A stretch of DNA of 64,000 nt. Origin: Occallatibacter gabretensis (lineage in GTDB: Bacteria > Acidobacteriota > Terriglobia > Terriglobales > Acidobacteriaceae). Both the position numbers and the translations under genes were made by a program. Shown here piece after piece: positions 1,307-57,816 of the stretch. Under the pieces are notes generated by a model. It worked only from the letters and a program-made list of their open reading frames with translations. It made no database searches and was not told the origin of the DNA. The stretch covers positions 310,001-374,000 of the forward strand of contig NZ_LAIJ01000002.1 in assembly GCF_001449115.1 (NCBI RefSeq). The letters run 5' to 3'. The first letter of the stretch is position 1, and every line of letters starts with the position of its first letter.

Positions 1307-1312
1307 TATACT
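1307..1312 (+). promoter_or_regulatory. Probable -10 box for the leader/paiB/cimA transcript
   Basis: TATACT matches the sigma-70 -10 hexamer. It would start transcription near 1319-1320, only about 5 nt before the leader-peptide ATG at 1325. The leader would then be almost leaderless, which agrees with the absence of a Shine-Dalgarno sequence. A convincing -35 is not visible. Confidence 0.45.
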
Positions 1313-1324
1313 CAAATCCAACTT

Positions 1325-1399
1325 ATGCAGCTCATCTCCATCGCGCGCCTCATTCCCGCCATTCGAATTAGCGGACCCATCGCGCGCATGGAAATCTGA
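1325..1399 (+). CDS. Isoleucine-rich leader peptide of the paiB-cimA transcript
   Basis: A 24-codon reading frame begins MQLISIARLIPAIRIS and ends in TGA at 1397-1399. Seven of its 24 residues are isoleucine and two are leucine. It starts a few nt after a likely transcription start and is followed about 30 nt later by an intrinsic terminator hairpin (1430-1467). A downstream gene encodes citramalate synthase, which commits carbon to isoleucine. Peptide composition, terminator and target pathway together match classical ribosome-mediated attenuation. The peptide function is inferred. Confidence 0.6.
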   Translation: MQLISIARLIPAIRISGPIARMEI

Positions 1400-1429
1400 G
1401 GCCGGGTTTAAGATTCAAAAGCAGAATTC

Positions 1430-1467
1430 AAAGGCCACCAGCGCGCACCAGCCGCCGGTGGCCTTTT
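1430..1467 (+). terminator. Attenuator terminator hairpin
   Basis: A 10-bp stem (AAAGGCCACC with GGTGGCCTTT) closes a GC-rich 17-nt loop and runs straight into TTTT. It lies between the leader peptide and the paiB start. The loop contains GCGCGC, which can pair with the GCGCGC inside the last leader codons (about 1381-1387). That pairing offers a possible antiterminator whose formation depends on where a ribosome stalls. The alternative pairing is my inference. Confidence 0.6.
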
Positions 1468-1499
1468 CAATTTCAGCGTAATCATCTAATCGGAGCGCC

Positions 1500-2138
1500 A
1501 TGTACACTCCAAAATTCAACCACATCGACGACCGCGCTACACTCCTCGAAGCAATGCAGACCTACTCCTTCGCCATCCTCGTCGGCCCCAACGGGATTGA
1601 CCCGATGACAGCAACGCACCTGCCTCTCGTAGTCAAAGATGAAGGCGAACACGGCCTCATCGAGGGCCACTTCGCCCGCGCCAACAAGCACTGGGCCAGC
1701 CTCGCCGGCCACGAAACACTCGTCATCTTCCCCGGCCCGCACACCTACGTCACCCCGGCGCTCTACACAGAAGACCTCTCCGTCCCTACCTGGAACTACA
1801 TCGCTATCCACGCCTACGGAACGCTCGAACTTATCGAAGACCAGGACACCAAAAACCGTCTCGTAGAAGAGCTAATCACCAAACACGATCCACAATTTCT
1901 CAACCACTGGCACGCCGAACCCGACGGCTATCGCCGCACCATGCTCGCCGGAATCACAGGCTTCTGCATCCCCATCGCACGCATTGAAGGCAAATTCAAA
2001 ATCAGCCAGAATCGCAACGCCGAAGAGCGCCACAATATCCAGACCGCACACGCCGCTGGATCAGACGACGAGCGCGAACTCGCCCGCTGGATGACTCGCC
2101 TAATCCCCGCACTCGAATCACAAGAAGGAAAAGCATGA
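1500..2138 (+). CDS. PaiB-like FMN-binding protein
   Basis: The 212-residue protein belongs to the PaiB/FMN-binding transcriptional regulator family. It starts MYTPKFNHIDD, as these proteins do, and contains THLPLVVKD, the 'GHFARANKHWASL' segment and FPGPHTYVTPALY with VPTWNYIAIHAYG, the conserved flavin-fold motifs. Family members bind FMN in a split-barrel fold. The B. subtilis protein is linked to repression of sporulation and protease genes. The gene ends inside the first codon of cimA (ATGA overlap), so the two are translationally coupled under the leader/attenuator. Why a PaiB protein is tied to isoleucine synthesis is unclear. Confidence 0.8.
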   Translation: MYTPKFNHIDDRATLLEAMQTYSFAILVGPNGIDPMTATHLPLVVKDEGEHGLIEGHFARANKHWASLAGHETLVIFPGPHTYVTPALYTEDLSVPTWNYIAIHAYGTLELIEDQDTKNRLVEELITKHDPQFLNHWHAEPDGYRRTMLAGITGFCIPIARIEGKFKISQNRNAEERHNIQTAHAAGSDDERELARWMTRLIPALESQEGKA

Positions 2139-3811
2139 CCGCACCACGACAAGTAGAAATCTTCGACACCAGCCTCCGCGACGGCCTTCAACAGCCGAAT
2201 CTCGAGATCTCCGTCCCCGCCGCCGTCCATCTCCTGGAGCGCATGGGAGCCTTCGGCATCCACTACGCGGAAATCGGCTTCGCCGGCGCAAATCACTTCG
2301 TAACCCAGCTAGCCAGCGCACTCAAAAACGCCAACACCGGCGCCATGAAGCTAGCACTCTTCGGCCGCACTCGCGGCCGCAATATTCAAGTCGCCGACTG
2401 GCCCGACCTGCAGCTCATGCTCGCCCACAAAGATCGCATCTCCACCGCAGTCATCGTCGCAAAATCGCGCCTCCTCGACGTTCAGCGCTCTCTCGAAACC
2501 ACCCCCGAGGAAAACCTTCTCATGGTCCGCGAAACCATCGCATATCTTCAGGACCACGGCCTCGAAGTGATCGTCGATCTCGAACACGCCATGGACGCCT
2601 TCTGCAGCCGTCAGGAATTCGGCCAACCCTCCACACCCGATTTCGCCGCCCAAACCCTCTCACACTTCCACGCCCTCGTCGATCAGTGCGTATCGCAATC
2701 CGTCTCCCGCATCGTCATCTGTGACACCAACGGCGGAGCCAGCCCGGAAGAAGTCTCCGCAATCTTTACCGACCTCACCACCCGCCACACCAACGCAAAA
2801 TTCGGCTTCCACGGCCACACCGATCGCGGCCTCGGCGTAGCCAACACCCGCGCCGCCATTCTTGCCGGAGCCGTGCAGGTGCAAGGCACTCTCCTCGGCA
2901 CCGGCGAGCGCTGCGGCAACGTCAACCTCACCACCGTCATCGGCAGCATGCAGCTCCGCGGCGAAGCCGAATTCGTTCCCACCGCATCCCTTACCAGCCT
3001 AACCAGCCTTGCGCACTCCGCCTTTGACGCCTTCGCACTCGAAGTCCCCCACGGCGCGCCGATCGTCGGTCCCGGCGCATTCAGCACCTGGGCCGGCATG
3101 CACGGCAGCTCTGAGCGCAAGCACCCCGGAGCCTACCTCTGGTGCGACCCGGCGCGCGTCGGCGCAACTCCCGCCATTGGCGTCAACGCCCACTCCGGCA
3201 AGGCCAACGTCCTTCTCCTCTCAGAGCAGTTGGGAGTCCAGCTCAATAACATTCAGGCGCAGGAGTTCATCGAGGCAAACACCGCCATGATTGACGGCGG
3301 CGGCTTCACAGCTAGTGAAGTCTCATTCCGCCTCGCCTGCATGAAGATTCTCGGAACACTCCCCGATCTTTTCGCTGTCCGCACCTGGCGCGTCTTTGAC
3401 GAGTCGGATGAATCCGGCAAGCGCTACGTACAGGCCTCCATCTCCCTCGCCATCAACGGCGTCATCCTTACTTCACGCTCAGAAGGCGAAGGCCCCGTCG
3501 ATGCCCTCACCCGCGCCATGCGCCGGGAGCTCGACAAGTGGTACCCAGACCTGCAGCGGATGCGCCTCGGCCGTTTCTCCGTCACCGCCATCGACGTCTC
3601 CGCTCTCGACTCCGCCGCCCGCGTCCGCGTAACCGTCAGCTTCACCGCCGACGGACACGACACCCACACAACCGAATCATGGACCACTGCCGGCGTCTCC
3701 TCCGACATGAACCAGGCCGCCCTCAACGCCATCCTCGACGGCTTCCACTATTGGCTGCTGCAAACAACCGTCCATGCCATTGAGAAGCAACCTGTTTCTA
3801 CCGCTATTTGA
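2135..3811 (+). CDS. cimA: (R)-citramalate synthase
   Basis: The 558-residue protein is a LeuA/CimA-type acyltransferase. The N-terminal TIM barrel carries VEIFDTSLRDGLQQPN (metal- and substrate-binding D-x-x-x-R-D), YAEIGF, FHGHTDRGLGVANT (metal-binding HxH) and GTLLGTGERCGN. A C-terminal regulatory LeuA-type dimer domain follows from about residue 400. CimA condenses pyruvate and acetyl-CoA to (R)-citramalate, the threonine-independent route to 2-oxobutanoate and isoleucine. The length and the GFAGAN segment fit the long acidobacterial/deltaproteobacterial CimA group better than isopropylmalate synthase. Transcription probably responds to charged tRNA-Ile through the upstream leader. Confidence 0.85.
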   Translation: MTAPRQVEIFDTSLRDGLQQPNLEISVPAAVHLLERMGAFGIHYAEIGFAGANHFVTQLASALKNANTGAMKLALFGRTRGRNIQVADWPDLQLMLAHKDRISTAVIVAKSRLLDVQRSLETTPEENLLMVRETIAYLQDHGLEVIVDLEHAMDAFCSRQEFGQPSTPDFAAQTLSHFHALVDQCVSQSVSRIVICDTNGGASPEEVSAIFTDLTTRHTNAKFGFHGHTDRGLGVANTRAAILAGAVQVQGTLLGTGERCGNVNLTTVIGSMQLRGEAEFVPTASLTSLTSLAHSAFDAFALEVPHGAPIVGPGAFSTWAGMHGSSERKHPGAYLWCDPARVGATPAIGVNAHSGKANVLLLSEQLGVQLNNIQAQEFIEANTAMIDGGGFTASEVSFRLACMKILGTLPDLFAVRTWRVFDESDESGKRYVQASISLAINGVILTSRSEGEGPVDALTRAMRRELDKWYPDLQRMRLGRFSVTAIDVSALDSAARVRVTVSFTADGHDTHTTESWTTAGVSSDMNQAALNAILDGFHYWLLQTTVHAIEKQPVSTAI

Positions 3812-4349: not shown

Positions 4350-4434
4350 GCGGAGGTGGCGAAATTGGCAGACGCACTAGCTTGAGGTGCTAGCGCCGCA
4401 AGGCATAGGGGTTCAAGTCCCCTCCTCCGCACCA
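4350..4434 (+). tRNA. tRNA-Leu (anticodon GAG), integration site of the island
   Basis: An 85-nt class II tRNA with encoded CCA. The acceptor stem GCGGAGG pairs with CCTCCGC, the anticodon stem is CTAGC/GCTAG around TTGAGGT (anticodon GAG), a long variable arm folds as GCC-GCAA-GGC, and the T arm is GGGGTTCAAGTCCCC. A TATACT box lies at 4331-4336, just upstream. Because the element integrated here, everything from the anticodon stem onward is the element-borne 3' half. Confidence 0.95.
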
Positions 4435-56103: not shown

Positions 56104-57156
56104 ATGGGCAAGAATGCGTATGGCAGCGGCTCGATCTTCTTACGTGGAACAATCTGGTGGGTTCAGGTCTGGGTCGATAACAAGCAGCTCTCGCAATCGA
56201 GCAGATCAACAAAGAAGTCGGAAGCAATCAAGCTCCGCGACAAGCTCCTGGGCAAGAAACATCGCAGGGAGATCACGGGCGGTCCCGCAGAGAGTGTTCT
56301 CATCGCTGAACTGCTGGATGACGTTCTCAAGAGCGACATCGAAGAATCTACGCGGTACATCTGGAAGCTGGTTGTCGAGAAGAGCCTAAGACCGTTCTTC
56401 GGGCGAACGCGAGGGACAAGGCTTTCTACCGATCTGCTGGAGAGCTATCGTGAGAAGCGGACGGGCGAAGGGGTCACAAACGCTACCGTAAACCGTGAGC
56501 TATCTATCCTGCGAACTGCATTTCATAACGCGCGGAAAAGAACTCCTCCGAAGGTGCATACGGTTCCCTACTTTCCAATGGTGAAGGAAACGACCGTCCG
56601 AAAGGGCTTCCTGTCAGACGAGATTTACGCCAAGCTCCGTGATGCCCTAGAACATGAACTCAAGCCTCTGTTTGTCAGCGGCTATGTAACGGGTATCCGA
56701 AAGGGAGAGCTCCTAGCGATTCAGTGGCCACAGCTCAACTTCGAGAATAGTGAGATTGGACTTGAACCTGACGAGACGAAGGGCCGGGAAGGCCGATCGG
56801 TTCCGATCCTTGATGGTGACATGCGGGATTTACTTCTTGCCTCAAAGAAGGAACGCGACGAATCATGGCCCGATTCGCCCTGGGTATTCAACCGTGGGGG
56901 ACAGCAAATTAAGGACTTCCGGGGTGGTTGGGTGAACGCCTGTAAGGGGGCTGGAGTTCCTGATCTAAACTTCCACGATCTTCGTAGAACCGCCGTTCGT
57001 AATATGCGGCGTGATGGCGTACCACAAGTGATACGGATGAAGATCAGTGGCCACAAGACAGACTCAATGGAGCGCCGGTACAATATCGTAGATGGCGATG
57101 ATTTGGCTGTCGCGAAGGAGTTTATGGAGCGCGGTATGAAGCTCCGCAAAGTGTAG
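56104..57156 (+). CDS. int: Tyrosine recombinase (integrase)
   Basis: The 350-residue protein has a three-stranded AP2-like N-terminal domain (GSGSIFLRGTIWWVQVWVDNK), a SAM-like core-binding domain (65-145) and a catalytic domain with Arg199 (TGIRKGE), Lys226, His291-x-x-Arg294 (HDLRRT), His317 (GHKT) and Tyr326 (RRYN). All six key residues are present. It lies beside the right att repeat, and its stop codon overlaps the right GTAGTGGTT arm repeat. Confidence 0.95.
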   Translation: MGKNAYGSGSIFLRGTIWWVQVWVDNKQLSQSSRSTKKSEAIKLRDKLLGKKHRREITGGPAESVLIAELLDDVLKSDIEESTRYIWKLVVEKSLRPFFGRTRGTRLSTDLLESYREKRTGEGVTNATVNRELSILRTAFHNARKRTPPKVHTVPYFPMVKETTVRKGFLSDEIYAKLRDALEHELKPLFVSGYVTGIRKGELLAIQWPQLNFENSEIGLEPDETKGREGRSVPILDGDMRDLLLASKKERDESWPDSPWVFNRGGQQIKDFRGGWVNACKGAGVPDLNFHDLRRTAVRNMRRDGVPQVIRMKISGHKTDSMERRYNIVDGDDLAVAKEFMERGMKLRKV

Positions 57157-57261: not shown

Positions 57262-57319
57262 TAGCTTGAGGTGCTAGCGGGTAACTCCATAGGGGTTCAA
57301 GTCCCCTCCTCCGCACCAA
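57262..57319 (+). repeat. Right attachment repeat: displaced 3' half of host tRNA-Leu
   Basis: This copies tRNA-Leu from the anticodon stem to CCA, but the variable arm reads GGTAACTCC, which also folds as a short stem. It lacks the 5' half and cannot be a functional tRNA. It should be the host's own 3' half, pushed 53 kb away by integration. A weak hairpin with a T run (57328-57350) follows and may be the original terminator. Confidence 0.85.
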
Positions 57320-57368: not shown

Positions 57369-57665
57369 ATGCAGATTCTTCTTTACTTCGTCATCGCAAT
57401 CCATGTGGTTGCCTGTCTCTTTTTGATCGGCGTCGTGCTGCTCCAGCAGGGCCGCTCCGCTGATCTCGCCGGCGCATTTGGCGGTCAGGGCTCGCAGACA
57501 GCCTTTGGACCCCGTGCCGCCGCAAACATCTTTACGCGCCTCACCGCCTGGGCAGCCGTCATCTTCATGCTCACATCGCTGAGCCTGACCGTGCTCTATG
57601 TACGCTCCACGCACTCGCGCTCCGTCCTCGACGGCACAACGCAGTCCGCTCCGGTCAAGAAGTAG
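57369..57665 (+). CDS. secG: Preprotein translocase subunit SecG
   Basis: The 98-residue protein has two membrane helices: the first in FVIAIHVVACLFLIGVVLLQQGRS and the second in LTAWAAVIFMLTSLSLTVLYV. Between them is the SecG signature LQQGRSADLAGAFGGQGSQTAFGPR. It stimulates SecYEG-dependent protein export. It is the first intact chromosomal gene after the element. Confidence 0.92.
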   Translation: MQILLYFVIAIHVVACLFLIGVVLLQQGRSADLAGAFGGQGSQTAFGPRAAANIFTRLTAWAAVIFMLTSLSLTVLYVRSTHSRSVLDGTTQSAPVKK

Positions 57666-57795: not shown

Positions 57796-57816
57796 TAAAA
57801 TCACAAAGTGATTTTA
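57796..57816. promoter_or_regulatory. Hairpin over the GTG start of the MBL gene
   Basis: TAAAATCAC-AAA-GTGATTTTA is a perfect 9-bp inverted repeat. The GTG at 57808-57810 is the start codon of the following gene. In RNA it would bury the start codon; in DNA it could be an operator. Confidence 0.5.

Follow-up and report, generated by a model that had tools for sequence, protein, structure and literature searches.

A predicted isoleucine leader-peptide attenuator of Occallatibacter gabretensis and its relatives, under which ilvA has apparently been exchanged for cimA

Attenuators known from enterobacteria include ilvL of ilvGMEDA, thrL and leuL, of which ilvL senses Ile, Val and Leu. In Sinorhizobium meliloti, the trpL transcript begins at the leader AUG and is subject to ribosome-mediated attenuation (PMC7298713), and for the ilvBNC attenuator of Corynebacterium glutamicum, which precedes key enzymes of all three branched-chain amino acids, competing hairpins with mutational support are reported (PMC11857589). 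For Acidobacteria, attenuation by premature terminators was predicted in a 2010 survey, with almost none of the cases having an associated function (PMC2965389), and leader ORFs near start codons have been treated statistically (PMC4833913). In the open-licence literature, no earlier isoleucine leader-peptide attenuator from Acidobacteria was found and no paper was recognised that links citramalate synthase to attenuation; work in subscription journals may exist.

The locus described here was analysed within 64,000 nt of O. gabretensis DNA (hereafter the window). It most probably represents a ribosome-mediated transcription attenuator that senses charged tRNA-Ile, belonging to an ilvA-type leader family and now having cimA under it, a reading to which we assign a probability of roughly 0.88. 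Between positions 1300 and 1500, an extended -10 element is followed by an ATG, a 24-codon ORF and a hairpin with a short U-rich tail, and then by paiB and cimA (Table 1). The ORF encodes the peptide MQLISIARLIPAIRISGPIARMEI, with Ile at positions 4, 6, 10, 13, 15, 19 and 24. Its ATG is 12 nt from the -10 and is preceded by no Shine-Dalgarno sequence; judged from the promoter, transcription is predicted to start about 5-6 nt upstream of the leader. Of the 581 ORFs in the whole window that begin with ATG and span 15-40 codons, counting both strands, no other has seven or more Ile or reaches 29% Ile, and the chance of at least seven Ile in 23 residues is P=1.9e-4 when the Ile frequency is taken from paiB plus cimA. 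A simple consensus scan of the window detected neither the leader promoter, overlooked because its -35 is weak, nor the terminator, overlooked because its inner loop is long. The sequence-only reading, in which a near-leaderless 24-codon frame with seven Ile is followed by a terminator and then by paiB-cimA, was confirmed by the sequence and by recurrence in relatives.

Table 1. Features of the leader locus, in window coordinates
Feature	Position	Strand	Basis or remark
Extended -10 TGC-TATACT, predicted	1304-1312 (hexamer 1307-1312)	+	Direct sequence; -35 weak in the O. gabretensis genome
Leader peptide ORF, near-leaderless, 7 Ile	1325-1399 (ATG to TGA)	+	Sequence; in relatives, promoter-proximal and sharing the frame of the CGA-ATT core
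Region 1, protector arm UCCAUCGCGCGC	1337-1348	+	11 bases paired to region 2 in the ribosome-free fold
Control-codon core ATT CGA ATT AGC (Ile13-Arg14-Ile15-Ser16)	1361-1372	+	CGA-ATT in nearly all of 55 leaders
Region 2, GCGCGC-A-UGG and GGCC	1382-1403	+	Antiterminator with region 3; leader stop codon inside
Region 3, AAGGCCACCAGCGCGC	1431-1446	+	Common to antiterminator and terminator
Intrinsic terminator hairpin, arms AAGGCCACC (1431-1439) and GGTGGCCTT (1457-1465), U-rich tail TTTTCAATTT	1431-1467	+	Sequence, folding, covariation in relatives
paiB-like gene, FMN-binding protein (PF04299)	1500-2138	+	Pfam 2.9e-44; beside ilvA or cimA after the leader in relatives
cimA-like gene, citramalate synthase, HMGL-like and LeuA dimer domains	2135-3811	+	TIGR00977 best model; overlaps paiB
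tRNA-Leu(GAG)	4350-4434	+	Conserved downstream boundary of the ilvA-paiB and paiB-cimA forms

Upstream of the leader, at 321-909, lies a pair consisting of a BrnT toxin (PF04365) and a CopG-type antitoxin (PF12441). Downstream, a 52.9-kb element (4405-57318) is integrated in the tRNA-Leu(GAG) gene between the copies of an exact 30-bp direct repeat (4405-4434 and 57289-57318), with an integrase-like ORF (56104-57156) adjoining its right end. Past the element, secG resumes at 57369, followed by a gloB-like gene at 57808; both stand beside the tRNA in relatives.

The distribution of the leader was determined with a covariance model built from ten leaders, which was searched against 80 same-genus and 398 family genomes. 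Matches were found in 37 of the 80 same-genus genomes, at one place each, and in 60 of the 398 family genomes, spread over 15 of 79 genera; since the weakest family-level matches are mixed, with leaders that belong to different amino-acid operons and at least one match (G268) that looks like chance, the 60 are not a tally of isoleucine elements. Of the 37 matched genomes of the genus, 30 have ilvA after the leader and six have paiB-cimA; in G039 the leader is followed by a small gene that, by eye, resembles one for an ACT-domain protein. The leader is associated with ilvA (P=4e-12, uncorrected for phylogeny), and the leader recurs in frame in dozens of relatives, many of its copies sitting before ilvA-paiB. 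Three ilvA genomes that the model did not match (G213, G216 and G056) nevertheless have, ahead of ilvA, a short ORF close to the promoter and a hairpin resembling a terminator, and in distant genera of the family plainly Ile-rich leaders (IIIPSIIRSIISIH, IIVVIQIS) precede ilvA, or an ACT-like gene plus ilvA. In relatives, the Ile codon or codons, the terminator, the competing antiterminator pairing and the predicted near-leaderless start were all kept, as the alignment proposed from the sequence alone was meant to reveal, and the genes after the leaders are isoleucine-specific (ilvA or cimA). The earlier proposal of an attenuator controlling paiB-cimA was thus right as to kind, but the locus is one case of a family that stands mostly before ilvA, with paiB-cimA in the minority. 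An exact-pattern scan of public genomes, in which the leader was seen before ilvA as well (the gene being identified by eye from its sequence similarity), returned acidobacterial leaders at 15-nt spacing and one genuine leader at 13 nt (L058); five other matches, in unrelated organisms, were set aside as apparent chance.

Leaders of other operons were also encountered. A His-rich leader peptide and a terminator precede hisI-hisG-like genes in G374 of the same family (L131:1995-2117), Cys-rich leaders with terminators precede sulfite reductase-like genes in G313 of the family (L139:2107-2224) and in G517 of the class (L172:201-349), and the same covariance model matches before sulfur-assimilation-like genes at L129 and L135. 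Thr-rich leaders stand before an aspartokinase-like gene in G086 (L137) and before an aspartate-semialdehyde-dehydrogenase-like gene in G669 of another family (L171:201-349), the latter with CGA-ATT-ACG twice in tandem, while an Ile/Val-rich leader stands before ilvD plus an acetolactate-synthase-like gene in G078 (L134). The matches in G669 and G517, which lie outside the family, were considered as the same element and rejected as leaders of other operons.

The architecture of the leader ORF is shared among relatives. A start codon 9-14 nt after a -10, together with a -35 that has at least five of the six bases of TTGACA, was seen in 47 of the 58 relative leaders, and the near-leaderless geometry of the start is thus predicted to be conserved. 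Almost without exception, the start codon nearest the promoter shares the reading frame of the core, and the N-terminal part differs in length among leaders, from about 10 to 30 codons. Ile content is 12.9% over the 58 leaders, and some ilvA leaders carry a single Ile codon (G051, G048), which is below textbook attenuators. Across 55 leaders the core has CGA as its Arg codon in 51 and ATT (AUU) as its Ile codon in 51, and CGA is otherwise rare, making up one of 43 Arg codons in paiB plus cimA and 6 of 138 in downstream genes. The typed tRNA-Arg genes of the genome have the anticodons ACG, CCG, TCT and CCT; tRNA-Arg(TCG) was not found among the typed tRNAs, a set that excludes a few matches whose size, 82-90 nt, is that of tRNAs carrying a long variable arm. 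Decoding of CGA is therefore expected to depend on I-A wobble, which is generally slow and may have a role in the leader.

These features of the core could also be taken to mean that the signal is not Ile-tRNA shortage as such but a programmed pause at CGA-AUU, for example through slow I-A wobble or nascent-peptide arrest, which some other input would tune. Such a pause would account for both codons being kept at 51 of 55 despite the rarity of CGA, for the missing tRNA-Arg(TCG) among the typed tRNAs and for the leaders with a single Ile codon. It is nevertheless considered unlikely, as the genes that follow are specific to isoleucine, seven Ile occur in the window leader, the distant G286 and G173 have Ile runs without CGA-AUU, and the dicodon may merely time a stall that senses Ile. 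With sensing of charged tRNA-Ile as the preferred reading, a tentative and on balance doubtful elaboration is that CGA-AUU, at its near-fixed distance from region 2, might be the sensing point of an attenuator found throughout the Acidobacteriaceae, where slow decoding by tRNA-Arg(ICG) would hold the ribosome in register and a single Ile codon would gate transcription. Because a switch of this sort would sense the end product only, the first enzyme of the pathway could change from threonine deaminase to citramalate synthase with regulation left as it was.

The downstream part of the ORF is under a different constraint. In G281, G243 and G158, about 10 nt have been inserted and shift region 2 into a different frame, yet its bases persist; the constraint on region 2 therefore lies in the RNA, and that on the core in the codons. 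By eye, the insert seems able to fold into a small hairpin (GCCC/GGGC, and GCAC/GUGC in G158). An insert of 10 to 12 nt between core and region 2 was seen in four genomes of one genus (g44; L100, L101, L104 and L112), where it could form a small hairpin that preserves the distance between the two. The shift of frame bears on whether the ORF encodes a functional small peptide, with the hairpin acting as a plain constitutive transcription filter and no switching. The C-terminal pattern RIS/T..N...AG..A, conserved in many leaders, would suit a microprotein, yet its AG..A portion maps to the very region 2 nucleotides that are kept out of frame in those three genomes, the N-terminal half varies in both length and sequence, and the native arms of the antiterminator match each other more closely than permuted arms do (see below), so that a microprotein or a plain filter is judged very unlikely.

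Folding of the window sequence supports a set of mutually exclusive hairpins. The region 1320-1480 folds with z=-4.1, better than 200 of 200 dinucleotide shuffles. Its terminator is present as claimed from the sequence, although the stem comprises nine contiguous Watson-Crick pairs and not 10; the U tract is short. In the ribosome-free fold in silico, regions 1 and 2 are paired and the terminator is formed. Ribosome stalling was then simulated for each Ile codon by placing the front edge of the ribosome 15 nt from the first base of the A-site codon and folding the RNA beyond it. A stall at Ile codon 4, 6, 10, 13 or 15 lets 13 region 2 bases engage region 3 once the latter is transcribed, whereas the pairing is partial at codon 19 and zero at codon 24 or at the stop. 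The notion that stalling on Ile codons relieves termination accordingly suits codons 4-15, which are appropriately placed, but not codons 19 and 24. Once region 4 is complete, folding predicts the terminator for each stall position; antitermination must therefore be kinetic, that is, readthrough would require the antiterminator to persist while the polymerase passes, which is the usual assumption for known attenuators.

The two sides of the terminator stem covary in relatives (15 cells with double-sided changes; 0 of 500 shuffles). For the antiterminator, 90% of the column pairs are kept with zero double-sided covariation, the arms being too constant for this test. The fit between its arms was also read from duplex energies: native duplexes of region 2 with region 3 are at -17.9 against a permuted mean of -16.0 (SD 0.25; 0 of 20000 permutations; shared ancestry not corrected). 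The window is the clearest case, since both of its arms are unlike those of relatives and no foreign region 3 fits its region 2 equally: its native duplex is at -20.9 kcal/mol, compared with -12.2 +/- 2.1 kcal/mol with region 3 of other genomes. A competing antiterminator pairing is kept in relatives, but the GCGCGC letters put forward from the sequence are specific to the window and relatives pair GCGGG..GCCUG with CAGGC..CCCGC. Region 1:2 pairing is only weakly conserved in relatives (73% of cells, no covariation), a count that speaks neither for nor against it, and pairing of the core with AT-rich stretches ahead of the terminator, inspected by eye, was not consistent.

T-boxes control isoleucine genes in other phyla, and a T-loop-like UUCGAAU lies within the core, both of which would be compatible with direct recognition of tRNA or a metabolite by the RNA (a T-box or riboswitch), the ORF being there by chance. 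However, a search of the window against Rfam at gathering score matched the tRNA alone (4350-4431), with no T-box, riboswitch or other RNA element at the leader, and the frame, start and stop positions of the ORF are conserved. The T-loop-like hairpin does not retain its GCYA/UAGC stem, which is lost for example in G223 (L066) and has a C-A mismatch in most leaders; UUCGAAU as a T-arm mimic was rejected on these grounds. Direct binding of this kind is thus regarded as extremely improbable.

Taken as a leader-peptide attenuator, the locus combines a short ORF near the promoter in which end-product codons are enriched, an intrinsic terminator between that ORF and the first structural gene, an antiterminator that excludes the terminator and in silico is freed by a stall at codons 4-15, and downstream genes (ilvA or cimA in relatives) that make the amino acid sensed. 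A near-leaderless transcript would be made, and a ribosome would load at once on the leader ORF. With ample isoleucine, the ribosome would reach the 3′ end of the ORF and cover region 2, so that the 3:4 terminator forms and paiB-cimA is off. When charged tRNA-Ile is short, the ribosome would wait at Ile codon 4, 6, 10, 13 or 15, of which Ile15, the AUU after CGA, would be the conserved stall codon; it would then mask region 1, leaving region 2 to pair with the emerging region 3 and the polymerase to read through. If the leader is not translated, the 1:2 hairpin would form and termination would be expected again.

The genes under the leader were then compared among genomes. The CimA-like protein has NCBIfam TIGR00977 as its best model at 320 bits, which is below the cut-off of 450, with the runner-up at 164 bits; citramalate synthase activity is predicted, and the missing ilvA supports this role. 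A paiB-like gene accompanies ilvA or cimA beneath the leader in many genomes. CimA orthologs are found in 47 of 59 same-genus genomes. Among the cimA loci read, all six with paiB upstream (five from the genus and one from a sister genus) have a homologous leader before paiB, and neither paiB nor the ATTCGAATTAGC core was seen upstream in the others. The leader as a property of cimA was rejected on account of these lone cimA genes in other genomes of the genus; cimA itself therefore does not require the leader. Two genomes (G044 and G037) have cimA without ilvA and without a leader match, and the switch is therefore not indispensable.

The leader-paiB-cimA arrangement is present in seven genomes (G000, G020, G055, G058, G007 and G219 of the genus, plus G153 of another genus), that of O. 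gabretensis included. An ilvA ortholog is absent from all seven (G153 being checked with the N-terminal 70 residues only), the best ilvA-like match in the six genus genomes being a paralog of about 40% identity that is found in ilvA genomes too. Given the frequency of ilvA-less genomes, this absence in the five near-complete genus cases has a chance probability of 0.024, and the argument for an exchange therefore rests mainly on synteny. Where contigs allow, both forms are at the same place, next to tRNA-Leu(GAG)-secG-gloB: the order ilvA-paiB-tRNA-Leu-secG is found at five loci (L161, L162, L163, L166 and L167) and paiB-cimA-tRNA-Leu-secG at two (L004 and L009), with L006 and the window extending to the tRNA. 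The leader-linked cimA genes form one clade (support 100/99), for which one origin of the arrangement is sufficient. From the seven genomes without ilvA and the shared locus, it follows that ilvA has apparently been exchanged for cimA under a retained isoleucine attenuator. Since the ilvA form is the more widely distributed, the simplest reading is that the leader family stood mainly before ilvA and that, in the O. gabretensis lineage, ilvA would have been lost and cimA would have arrived behind paiB under the old leader, the paiB-cimA arrangement apparently being the derived form.

In kind, the locus thus appears to be a known mechanism, ribosome-mediated attenuation, in a new family whose cargo has changed in an informative way. 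As a natural example of an end-product sensor apparently retained above an exchanged metabolic route, it raises the testable question of whether regulation is inherited with the product of a pathway or with its enzymes. The conserved CGA-AUU and the near-leaderless start also bear on how few control codons an attenuator needs.

Like ilvL, thrL and leuL, the acidobacterial leader has an ORF rich in codons of the end product, alternative 1:2, 2:3 and 3:4 pairings and a terminator before biosynthetic genes. It differs from ilvL in being enriched in Ile codons only, and from enterobacterial leaders in general in its near-leaderless start without a Shine-Dalgarno sequence, in its place before ilvA or paiB-cimA and in a conserved CGA-AUU that replaces a long run of control codons. 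The start, regarded as unusual in the sequence-only reading, is not unique, as the trpL transcript of S. meliloti begins at its own AUG (PMC7298713); that system shares the leaderless-type leader ORF and ribosome-mediated attenuation, but has Trp codons, trpE(G) and another phylum, whereas the prediction here is a 5′-UTR of about 2-7 nt. Competing hairpins at a branched-chain amino acid operon are shared with C. glutamicum ilvBNC, which differs in belonging to another phylum, in concerning all three branched-chain amino acids and in being supported by mutations (PMC11857589). Premature terminators are common to this locus and to the acidobacterial attenuators of the 2010 survey (PMC2965389); here they are linked with genes, codons and folds, which would give attenuation a concrete gene function in a phylum where that survey had almost none assigned.
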